Under the pieces are notes generated by a model. It ran no database searches. It was not told where the DNA came from and saw only the letters and a list, made by a program, of their open reading frames with translations. From the NCBI GenBank assembly GCA_018266875.1, contig JAFDZR010000009.1, positions 1-64,000 on the forward strand: DNA of 64,000 nt, given 5' to 3'. The stretch is from Bacteroidota bacterium (GTDB lineage: Bacteria; Bacteroidota; Ignavibacteria; Tepidaquicellales; Tepidaquicellaceae). The translations under genes and the position numbers were made by a program. Below, in pieces: positions 58,318-60,754 of this stretch. How positions within the stretch are numbered: the first letter of the stretch is position 1; each line of letters opens with the position of its first letter.

Positions 58318-58348
58318 TTTTTTAATAAAATTTTATGACAACCATTTG

Positions 58349-58421
58349 CACGGGAGGAGGGACTCGAACCCCCAACCAACGGTTTTGGAGACCGCTACTC
58401 TACCAATTGAGCTACACCCGC
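58349..58421 (-). tRNA. tRNA-Trp (anticodon CCA)
   Basis: Cloverleaf with anticodon loop CTCCAAA between the stems GCGGT and ACCGT, and T loop TTCGAGT. The acceptor stem GCGGGTG/CTCCCGT has a G-T pair at 1-72 and a T-T mismatch at 6-67. CCA is not encoded. It lies between rpmG and secE. Confidence 0.95.
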
Positions 58422-58442
58422 AGTTCGCTTCAGCAGATTTAC

Positions 58443-58616
58443 TCATTTCGATTCTCTGTGAAGAATATGCTGCCTGGTCCATCTGCAATATTTCTTAAGC
58501 TCAATTCTTTCTTTGGTGTTGACTCTGTTTTTGTAGGTAACATAAACGGACTTTCCTTTGTGCGGTCCTTCTATGCTGACCAGTTTAATCTTAACTCTTG
58601 ATCCTTCTTTTGCCAT
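58443..58616 (-). CDS. rpmG: 50S ribosomal protein L33
   Basis: A 57-residue protein starting MAKEGSRVKIKLVSIEG and ending KKYCRWTRQHILHRESK, the L33 C-terminal signature. Of the four zinc-ligand cysteines of the C+ form only one cysteine remains (Cys44), so this is a C- type that does not bind zinc. It contains a GPHKGK insertion-like turn at 18-23. The gene lies between tRNA-Thr and tRNA-Trp, in the usual neighbourhood of secE. Confidence 0.93.
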   Translation of the reverse strand: MAKEGSRVKIKLVSIEGPHKGKSVYVTYKNRVNTKERIELKKYCRWTRQHILHRESK

Positions 58617-58722
58617 TGTAATATTTTTCTAATATTATTGATATTTTTTACAGGTATTCAATTGAAACTTACTTATCAGGAAAGAATAAATATAAAAATT
58701 CAGTTATTTTTTTTGTTTTAAG

Positions 58723-58795
<73 letters not shown>

Positions 58796-58948
58796 TTTTC
58801 AGTTTTCCTTTTTTTAGCGGGAGACAATGTTTCCCTGGTTTTCATTCTGAGCAATCCATGGTATAATCAACTCCATGCCTGTTATTGCTATTTTAAAAAA
58901 GAACCGGTATTAAATTTCCCGTTGCTTTTCAAAGACCGTTTATTCCTG

Positions 58949-59021
58949 AGCGGGAGACGAGACTCGAACTCGCGACCAACAGCTTGGAAGGCTGTGACTC
59001 TACCAACTGAGTTACTCCCGC
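58949..59021 (-). tRNA. tRNA-Gly (anticodon TCC)
   Basis: Acceptor GCGGGAG/CTCCCGC; anticodon stem ACAGC/GCTGT around CTTCCAA, giving TCC; T loop TTCGAGT. CCA is not encoded. Confidence 0.96.
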
Positions 59022-59034
59022 ATTGATTCCTTTG

Positions 59035-59117
59035 TGGGTAGGGAAGGATTCGAACCTCCGAAGACCTGAGTCGACAGATTTACAGTCTGTTGCGTTTAAC
59101 CACTTCGCTACCTACCC
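59035..59117 (-). tRNA. tRNA-Tyr (anticodon GTA)
   Basis: A class II tRNA of 83 bases with a long variable arm. Acceptor GGGTAGG/CCTACCC, anticodon stem ACAGA/TCTGT around CTGTAAA, giving GTA; discriminator A. CCA is not encoded. First gene of the tRNA-rpmG-secE transcript, 13 bases before tRNA-Gly. Confidence 0.96.
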
Positions 59118-59269: not shown

Positions 59270-60754
59270 TTAAAGTAGGTTTAATTTGAAAAGGCTGTCA
59301 ATTTTGAGTTTCTGATCTTTAAGATTATTGATCCTTTCAAGAATAGACTGTTTCTCTTCATTCGTGAATGTCCTGCCCCCTGTATCTCCCGGTATTACTT
59401 TATAAAATGCGAGTTCAATGTCCTTTCCGAAATCCCTGTATTTATAATCGCCTGTCCTCTCGCAGTTCACCAGTATCGCCTGACCTGTTGTATAATTCTC
59501 ATTCTCATCTTTGATGGCAATTATGGTTCTGTTGTCAGGCTCTTTGCATAAATATATTCCGTCCTCCCTTTTTTCAGTGACCCTTGCGGAAATGATTTTC
59601 GTGATTGCGCTGGAGTTTCCCGAAGAGGTAAGGTTTATCAGCAGTTTGTCCTGCTCCCTTAACTCTCTTTCTAGATCGTTGTATTTTACTATCGATGCGA
59701 TCTTCTTGCTCAGAAGACTTATGTTTGCCTCAAGTATATTCAGGTCCCTGTACATTGCAGTTTCAGGAAACACCGTGAGGATGAGCTTTGCATTGTTGAG
59801 CTCGTTCAGTGATTCGCTGTATTTTCCTGATGCGTTAAGTTTTTTTGCGCCGGATATTTTCTGACCGTACTCGGCAAAAGCGACATTGTATATATTGTTG
59901 AATAGCGTTTTGGCATCATCAGGATCTATGCTGCCTTTTATTTTATTGTAATATTTCAGAGCAAGCTTCCAGTCATCCTTGTAATAAATGCTCGAGATCT
60001 GATATGAATAATTCTTTATTCTGTCAAGCGCCCTGTTCTTGTTCTTACCGTCTGAATAATTTCTTAGAAATGTCTCATACTTGCCTATCATTTTCTCCAT
60101 CGAATTAAGATCATTCGCCTTGTCTGACTTTACAAGTTCTGTATAATCCCTGTCTTCCTTTAAGATGAATGTATAATAACCTAGATAACCAAGAGCTGAA
60201 AGTATCGCTATTATTATCACTATAATAAGGATGTTTGTATAAAGCCTTCTTCTTTTCTGTTCCGGGGTCTTCTCCCTTATTACGTCCAGTCTTGTGTTAA
60301 CAAAATTTGTTTCCGTCTCATCTGTGTACTTCAGGACATTTTTATAATATATCTCAGCCGCCTTGTAATCCTTGTTCCCGAATGCCTCATCACCGCTTGT
60401 CATCAGATTTATCTTGTTGTTGATAAGGGCAACCGCCTTGTTGTAAAGATTTTTTAATTCGTTGTTTCTGCGGTCCAGCTTAAGATACTGCTTGCCTTCG
60501 AATATTGCTTCCGAGAACTGATTTCTGTTAATCAGATATTCAATGTTAATTATTGCTTCTCTTATCGAGACTTCCTCATTCTCATCCCTTATCTTTTCAC
60601 CGCAGCCGTATACTGCGCATCCCTTGTTCTCAGTCCAGCAGTCCTTATGATACGGGGAACTGCAGGAGTTGCAGAAGATCGCCTCCGAATCATTCTTTAT
60701 AGGCATCTGACAGAATGTACAGATATTCTTAACCGGTTTTAAAAGTTCATCCAT
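59270..60754 (-). CDS. Membrane protein with prokaryotic RING-like zinc domain and helical repeats
   Basis: A 494-residue protein of unknown function. The N-terminus holds a cross-brace zinc pattern: Cys12, Cys15, Cys28, Cys31, His36, Cys39, Cys46 and Cys51, as in the Prok-RING group of RING-like domains. A helical TPR-like segment (about 67-155) follows, then one membrane helix (about 173-195, ILIIVIIIAILSALGYLGYY) and a large second soluble part with coiled, TPR-like helices (about 205-370) and a beta-rich end (about 385-470). No signal peptide, so the RING-like domain is probably cytoplasmic and the C-terminal part outside. Stand-alone, 153 bases from tRNA-Tyr. Eukaryotic-type E3 ligase activity should not be assumed. 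Confidence 0.75.
   Translation of the reverse strand: MDELLKPVKNICTFCQMPIKNDSEAIFCNSCSSPYHKDCWTENKGCAVYGCGEKIRDENEEVSIREAIINIEYLINRNQFSEAIFEGKQYLKLDRRNNELKNLYNKAVALINNKINLMTSGDEAFGNKDYKAAEIYYKNVLKYTDETETNFVNTRLDVIREKTPEQKRRRLYTNILIIVIIIAILSALGYLGYYTFILKEDRDYTELVKSDKANDLNSMEKMIGKYETFLRNYSDGKNKNRALDRIKNYSYQISSIYYKDDWKLALKYYNKIKGSIDPDDAKTLFNNIYNVAFAEYGQKISGAKKLNASGKYSESLNELNNAKLILTVFPETAMYRDLNILEANISLLSKKIASIVKYNDLERELREQDKLLINLTSSGNSSAITKIISARVTEKREDGIYLCKEPDNRTIIAIKDENENYTTGQAILVNCERTGDYKYRDFGKDIELAFYKVIPGDTGGRTFTNEEKQSILERINNLKDQKLKIDSLFKLNLL

Follow-up and report, generated by a model that had tools for sequence, protein, structure and literature searches.

The window analyzed here, a stretch of 64,000 nucleotides from a genome of the Ignavibacteria, encodes a membrane protein with an N-terminal RING-like domain that, judging by sequence comparisons, probably serves as an E3-type adaptor, anchored in the membrane, in a bacterial pathway of ubiquitin-like conjugation. 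The other components of this pathway, namely a ubiquitin-like protein (Ubl), an E1, an E2, a JAMM protease (JAB), and a second, shorter RING protein, are encoded in two operons elsewhere in the same genome (Table 1). A glycine of the RING, Gly50, tracks the presence of the E1 and the E2 across the family; genomes with neither of these two enzymes are termed system-less below.

Table 1. Features of the window, numbered from its first nucleotide, and the two pathway loci of the same genome
Feature	Location	Strand	Basis or remark
RING membrane protein gene, 494 aa	59270..60754	-	open reading frame, stop codon included
Prok-RING_1 domain, residues 8-53	60596..60733	-	PF14446 match
Codon of Gly50, just before the eighth ligand	60605..60607	-	kept in system-bearing, replaced in system-less genomes
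Cytoplasmic helical, weakly TPR-like part, residues 62-165	60260..60571	-	helices in the model, block pLDDT 73-95
Membrane span, residues about 173-197	60164..60238	-	hydropathy, K/R counts
Outer helical part, residues 200-376	59627..60157	-	model; Foldseek matches to TPR proteins and BamD
Outer beta domain, residues 384-455	59390..59605	-	five strands in the model
tRNA-Trp, -Thr, -Gly, and -Tyr	58348..59117	-	between the RING gene and the nusG/rplK block, same strand
JAB protease, HPN-type E2, and hexapeptide-repeat gene in a row	contig C39, L085:6996-9279		own genome
YukD-type Ubl, UBA3-like E1, and second RING membrane protein	contig C44:19955-22527 (L032:7956-10528)		operon-like order

A prokaryotic RING domain at the head of a membrane protein

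The coordinates given for the gene in the preliminary description are correct; it lies on the minus strand, the plus-strand reading containing 17 stops. The N terminus of its product displays the potential zinc ligands C12-x2-C15-x12-C28-x2-C31-x4-H36-x2-C39-x6-C46-x4-C51, i.e., the C4HC3 order, and matches the Prok-RING_1 model (PF14446) with 35.9 bits against a curated cut-off of 29.1 (E = 7.3e-9), a match that recurred at the same site in the whole-genome scan with 39.7 bits. All eight ligands are invariant in 17/17 aligned orthologs, as are Y35, W40, and G45. The earlier recognition of a full C4HC3 pattern within the first 51 residues, belonging to a prokaryotic RING-like domain on a membrane protein, is thus borne out, as is the rarity that it ascribed to such domains: of the 197 class genomes surveyed, 21 have a PF14446 match above the cut-off, and all of these belong to the window's own family. 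As a member of the established family Prok-RING_1, the domain by itself is no novelty. Working from the sequence alone, the preliminary description did not bring out the strand, the second RING protein of the genome, or the ubiquitin-like pathway encoded at other loci.

An ordinary zinc ribbon, the outcome that was to count against the RING assignment, is absent at the sequence level, the double-zinc-ribbon model (DZR) falling far under its cut-off (12.1 bits versus 27.3). The E value of the PF14446 match makes the pattern more than chance, and the ligands are complete in all 17 orthologs. Hence, a chance cysteine pattern or a zinc ribbon is ruled out at this level, and we accord it a vanishingly small probability.

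The sequence matches of the RING among solved structures are all weak. The best are PHD fingers, such as those of MTF2 and KDM5A, below which rank the RINGs of NOT4 and EL5. PHD fingers are likewise C4HC3 modules, with a tryptophan two residues before the seventh ligand; here this tryptophan is absent, as K44 and G45 precede C46, and the conserved tryptophan, W40, lies six residues before C46. The RING-CH model gave no match among the 16 Pfam families listed up to an E value of 10. The structure model, which contains no zinc (block pLDDT of 74-82 over residues 11-50), predicts a short hairpin and helix at the positions that a treble clef requires. The PHD matches lend themselves to a different account, namely, that the domain is a structural treble clef of the PHD/RING kind with no role beyond protein contact, that the protein is an envelope sensor or membrane scaffold with no link to the Ubl system, and that both have simply long resided in the family. 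We regard this account as unlikely but deserving of serious weight, and the findings on either side of it are given below.

Helical regions, membrane span, and outer domains

In the structure model of the whole protein (17 rows; mean pLDDT of 83.6, pTM of 0.43), the RING leads into helices, one long helix containing the membrane span, a second set of helices, and a beta domain, and the chain closes with a single helix. The TPR-like nature suggested for the first set of helices holds weakly: TPR_2 matches with an E value of 0.4, the Foldseek matches are largely TPR proteins (best E = 4.2e-4), and the VIA-align matches, with Z scores up to 10.2, mostly have very large rmsd values across the bent model. 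One compact VIA-align match, to the TPR domain of FKBP38 (Z = 9.2; 2.8 Å over 90 residues), falls on residues 199-290.

The protein has a single membrane span, as previously described, whose N-terminal side is richer in K/R in 22/22 orthologs; this excess places the RING inside the cell and the C terminus outside. What had been taken for a second large domain beyond the span is really a helical part followed by a poorly conserved beta domain, the latter having low identity between genera and being missing from the proteins of two system-less genomes (L018 and L019; 373 and 372 aa). As the fold searches with the whole model were filled by helical matches, none of which placed the beta domain, we do not claim it as a new fold.

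Phyletic distribution and gene neighborhood

At E ≤ 1e-5, the window protein finds matches in 21 of the 197 genomes in the class survey, all in the window's family. The long, window-type protein is present in 19 of these, with 15 copies of full length, two without the beta domain, one cut by a contig end, and one split, and the remaining two (G167 and G181) match solely via the shorter RING protein. Eight further genomes of the family add five long proteins, bringing the total to 24, and Prok-RING_1 is above its cut-off in 28 of the 29 family genomes. A survey of 395 genomes from the phylum recovered the long RING protein (E ≤ 1e-10) and the E2 (E ≤ 1e-12) in two genomes each, in both cases members of the window's family; beyond the phylum, coverage consisted of one peptide-pattern scan, which detects close relatives and gave one locus. 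The architecture, which the preliminary description had not recognized from elsewhere, is accordingly seen in a single family of Ignavibacteria among the genomes searched. The closest named relative, 82% identical, is from the record Ignavibacteria bacterium UBA2330.

Downstream of the RING gene and on the same strand are four tRNA genes, followed by frames that, from their sequences, we take to be nusG and rplK. Of the 24 genomes with the long RING gene, 18 have rplK in the same orientation on the same contig; in the other six, the two genes are on different contigs or rplK was not found. This shared placement speaks for vertical inheritance. The window gene adjoins no pathway gene and lies outside both operons; its conserved place beside rplK, rather than beside the pathway genes, is a point in favor of the treble clef serving protein contact alone. 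Viral contigs and plasmids were searched for relatives of the window protein and none was found, on which basis a mobile element was rejected.

A predicted ubiquitin-like conjugation system encoded in two operons

The shorter RING protein (304 aa) has a Prok-RING_1 domain (56.7 bits), a zinc ribbon, and a single membrane span, on the outer side of which it bears a weak NTF2-like resemblance (E = 0.018-0.02), and the NTF2-like model Cds6_C is above its cut-off in one relative (L034). Directly before its gene are a ThiF/E1 gene and a gene for an 89-aa YukD-type protein, the Ubl, whose single YukD match has 48.9 bits against a cut-off of 27. On contig C44, a gene that we presume to be UbiA-like adjoins this row. 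The surroundings of 15 short RING genes were fetched: the E1 gene adjoins in 13 (all but those of G142 and G181), the UbiA-like gene is near in 13, and the Ubl gene is listed in 11, to which an all-frame scan adds the Ubl at L035; in G175 the Ubl is on another contig. Four short RINGs (L119, L120, L118, and L036, from G070, G097, G202, and G116) have no ATG, GTG, or TTG ahead of the RING in the open frame, which leaves a start at a rare codon or read-on from upstream.

At E ≤ 1e-50, 16 of the 197 class genomes, all from the window's family, yield the E1. These 16 also yield the Ubl at E ≤ 1e-5, a threshold that further admits one remote match from a different family of the class (G068:C365:3150-3410; 31% identity, E = 2.6e-9); the search of that genome for the E1 at E ≤ 1e-50 gave no match. 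The E1 profile recovers eukaryotic ubiquitin E1s best (E = 1.3e-37) and UBA3 next, with ThiF and MoeB ranking behind. The best Foldseek match of the predicted structure (pTM of 0.85) is likewise UBA3 (E = 3.0e-21). In VIA-align, MoeB, UBA3, and ThiF are tied at a Z score of about 29 over the adenylation domain, and 15 of 50 rows extend to residues 378-381, in the region of the ubiquitin-fold domain (UFD), including the SUMO E1 (308 residues, 3.6 Å) and UBA3 in 2nvu (302 residues, 7.4 Å). C182, which is invariant in 13/13 sequences, is a candidate for the catalytic cysteine, in the segment of residues 177-198 that has low confidence in the model and would be the expected cysteine loop.

The Ubl contains the sequence EITAG at its end in 19/19 genomes, and in 10 of these a tail of 1 to 23 residues follows, which varies between genera and sometimes within one. 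From this fixed glycine end and loose tail, reminiscent of ubiquitin precursors, we infer that the Ubl is cut before use, and the JAB protein would be its natural cutter. Across the family genomes the Ubl is 83-100% identical to the own-genome copy. The protein that we take from its sequence to be ribosomal protein L11 (rplK) is 74-98% identical over the 26 other genomes where it was found and 79-98% in the 14 other genomes measured for both, with the Ubl being higher in 10 of the 14. Conservation about equal to that of L11 suggests that the Ubl has many binding partners, as does ubiquitin.

An E2 (PF00179) was found at E ≤ 1e-3 in 20 of the 29 family genomes and above the cut-off in 15, the own-genome copy on contig C39 having 28.5-28.6 bits against a cut-off of 27. 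It adjoins the JAB gene in 15/15 fetched loci, the JAB being split in one, and a hexapeptide-repeat gene flanks its other side in the same 15/15. Its C104 and HPN motif (residues 92-94) are invariant in 15/15 sequences and align with eukaryotic E2s, which also constitute most and the best of the 58 solved-structure matches of the profile (E = 4e-4); some chains of ribosomal protein S3Ae are among these matches as well. The JAB protein passes PF01398 in both copies tested, and the JAMM motif is complete in 14/14 unsplit copies. The motif precedes a membrane span, after which the two tested copies have a LysM match, one of 39.8 bits and the other, at 20.8, just below the cut-off of 20.9; some JABs, with lengths of 293-295 aa, are shorter and may not contain it. 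The K/R distribution favors the N-terminal side in only 8/14 JABs, so that the outside placing of the C terminus comes from the LysM domains of the two proteins.

Both RING proteins and the JAB protein have a single span of strong hydrophobicity. This common feature would also suit a RING that belongs to the pathway as a substrate or regulator rather than as an E3, with the anchor itself being modified or positioning the E1 or E2, a reading that we consider improbable in light of the position of Gly50 discussed below.

In a PADLOC search (E ≤ 0.01), no match was obtained for the window protein, the Ubl, or the E2; the E1 matches the model E1-E2 (best E = 2.6e-14), the JAB protein the model JAB (best E = 1.6e-12), and the short RING protein weakly matches LmuB (E = 0.0011). 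Given the conserved gene places, we do not favor a role of the system in anti-phage defense.

Loss of the system and persistence of the RING

Co-occurrence was assessed over the 29 family genomes with thresholds of E ≤ 1e-40 for the E1 and E ≤ 1e-3 for the E2. Each is present in 20 genomes, both in 19, and neither in eight (G090, G127, G142, G147, G181, G198, G199, and G204), so that the two agree in 27/29; G201 has only the E1 and G203 only the E2, both being broken assemblies (about 350 and 630 contigs). On a tree of residues 60-376 of the long protein (22 rows), the system must have been lost on two separate occasions; a single loss is obtained in 0% of 200 bootstrap trees. The system-less stems, 0.68 and 0.50, are no longer than two system-bearing ones (0.69 and 0.56).

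The long RING protein is found in 18 of the 20 E1-bearing genomes, the two in which it was not found being G167 (92% complete) and G202 (67%), and also in six of the eight system-less ones. Counting both types, RING proteins persist with intact ligands in seven of these eight (six long, five short). RINGs that survive with their ligands where no E1 or E2 was found thus do something for which the system is not needed, and this is the strongest result against a purely E3 role. It is to be expected of a treble clef kept for protein contact alone, and a RING that is not strictly tied to the system would also be compatible with a substrate or regulator. The long RINGs of system-less G127 and G199 fall under the Prok-RING_1 cut-off. 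The scores of the long protein overlap between system-bearing (35.3-48.7 bits) and system-less (26.0-43.1 bits) genomes, such that the score alone cannot separate the two groups.

Correlated change at Gly50

Both RING types in system-bearing genomes end in the signature G-C-x-x-Y/F-G-C, of which the second glycine corresponds to Gly50. It is kept in 18/18 long and 21/21 short RINGs of these genomes (39/39), the short ones including three with an unclear start codon and that of G203, which has an E2 and no E1 match. In system-less genomes it is replaced in 6/6 long RINGs (by D, I, S, S, S, and S) and its counterpart in 5/5 short ones (by E, D, D, D, and D), so that 0/11 keep the glycine; the five short cases are all from one genus and therefore belong to one of the two losses. 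K20 and E42 follow the same pattern (18 versus 6) in the long protein only. That three residues invariant in all 18 system-bearing proteins are changed in six system-less ones on two branches, with the counterpart of Gly50 changing in the short RING of the Ubl-E1 operon too, argues against a domain that has nothing to do with the Ubl system.

In eukaryotic RINGs, the loop between the seventh and eighth ligands and the helix after the sixth ligand touch the E2. Gly50 and E42 presumably sit at these E2-contacting positions, and the place of Gly50 in the loop between ligands 7 and 8 speaks for an E3 rather than for a mere substrate or regulator of the pathway.

Among 487 scored alignment columns, there are six in which one group is invariant and every scored member of the other differs; the RING, with 45 columns, has three of them, and the 442 columns elsewhere have three, two of which were scored on one clade alone. 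There is hence a modest excess of such columns in the RING, with a Fisher p of 0.012 over all columns, 0.28 among the columns invariant in system-bearing genomes, and 0.059 when, among these invariant columns, the ligands are excluded in addition; because Gly50 was noticed before counting, these p values are only guides, and the number of independent losses is two. In system-less pairs, the identities of the RING and the cytoplasmic helices are 76/82, 67/88, 75/76, and 59/70, with the RING lower in 4/4, whereas in 10 of 12 system-bearing pairs the RING identity is equal or higher; mixed pairs give 64/61, 60/56, 38/38, 41/40, and 38/45. These pairs, which are hand-chosen and non-independent, hint that the constraint on the RING has loosened in system-less genomes. 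The simplest account of these patterns would be a RING with a double task, in which a structural role conserves the ligands and the docking of an E2 conserves Gly50 and its neighbors only where an E2 exists.

Proposed function

Taking the window protein as an E3-type adaptor, we propose that the pathway might proceed as follows. The JAMM protease would trim the YukD-type Ubl to its ..ITAG end, whereupon the UBA3-like E1 would adenylate the Ubl, take it over on a cysteine, and hand it via the UFD to the E2 with its HPN motif and active cysteine. The charged E2 might then dock on the cytoplasmic RINGs, that of the window protein and that of the short protein from the operon, through a groove that would include Gly50. 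The TPR-like helices could hold membrane or envelope substrates, and the outer helical and beta domains could place or switch the ligase according to the state of the envelope. In this scheme the domain, the charge-based topology, the pathway genes with their co-occurrence, and the correlated loss of Gly50 come from the computations, and we infer the binding of the E2 by the RING, the transfer of the Ubl, the tagged targets, and the role of the outer part.

More tentatively, and as a possibility in which we place limited confidence, the family might have a complete ubiquitin-type pathway at the inner membrane. It would comprise two single-span RING ligases with their own outer domains, a single-span JAMM protease with an outer LysM domain in some members of the family, and one highly conserved Ubl. 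In response to envelope conditions sensed by the outer domains, the RINGs inside would tag proteins of the membrane or cytosol, making the ligases transmembrane E3 receptors.

Relationship to known systems

Eukaryotic membrane RING ligases, such as the RING-CH/MARCH proteins and Doa10, have the C4HC3 order and a cytoplasmic RING on a membrane protein; the likeness of the window protein to them is one of arrangement only. Burroughs et al. (2011, Mol BioSyst) reportedly treated RING and YukD-Ubl systems, RING proteins included. In titles and abstract openings, a scope in which that study did not fall, we encountered no paper on the present Ignavibacteria system, and we make no claim of its absence from print.

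The window protein shares with Prok-RING_1 the above-cut-off match, the C4HC3 order, and the longer gap between the last two ligands, which are given as marks of prokaryotic RINGs in a 2024 review (PMC11354881), and it differs in its additional regions: the TPR-like helices, the membrane span, and the helical and beta domains outside. Bacterial operons with Ubl, E1, E2, and JAB genes were predicted in 2006 by Iyer et al. (PMC1779556), in whose account YukD is tied to ESAT-6 export and not to an E1. The Ignavibacteria system resembles them in uniting these four genes in one genome and differs in its two operons and separate window gene, its HPN-type E2, and the membrane spans of its RINGs and protease. 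BilABCD similarly has a Ubl, E1, E2, and JAB, with a cut exposing the terminal glycine; its description in PMC11354881 names no RING. By the same account, BilB has a CEHH motif as against HPN and C104 here, BilA has two Ubl domains as against one, and BilD is a pseudodimer of two adenylation domains as against a single one with a UFD. The operon of Caldiarchaeum subterraneum (PMC11354881) likewise brings together a Ubl, E1, E2, RING, and protease in one prokaryote; however, it is archaeal and described with a C3H2C3 RING, in contrast to the C4HC3 RINGs on membrane proteins found here. According to the same review, a search with human E2 domains yielded single bacterial examples in each of four phyla that it names, and the phylum of the Ignavibacteria is not one of them (PMC11354881). 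What sets the present system apart, at the level of sequence, is the two-operon pathway with its predicted membrane-bound ligases and protease and the further, separate RING gene in the window.

Implications

If this reading is true, the bacterium would run an inherited Ubl-E1-E2-RING-JAMM cascade as a house system, with ligases and protease bound to the membrane. It would constitute a rare bacterial counterpart of the eukaryotic membrane ubiquitin ligases and could serve as a bacterial model of the route by which RING ligases became membrane proteins. The family would further offer a built-in natural control, in the form of sister lineages without E1, E2, and Ubl in which the same RING glycine is changed.
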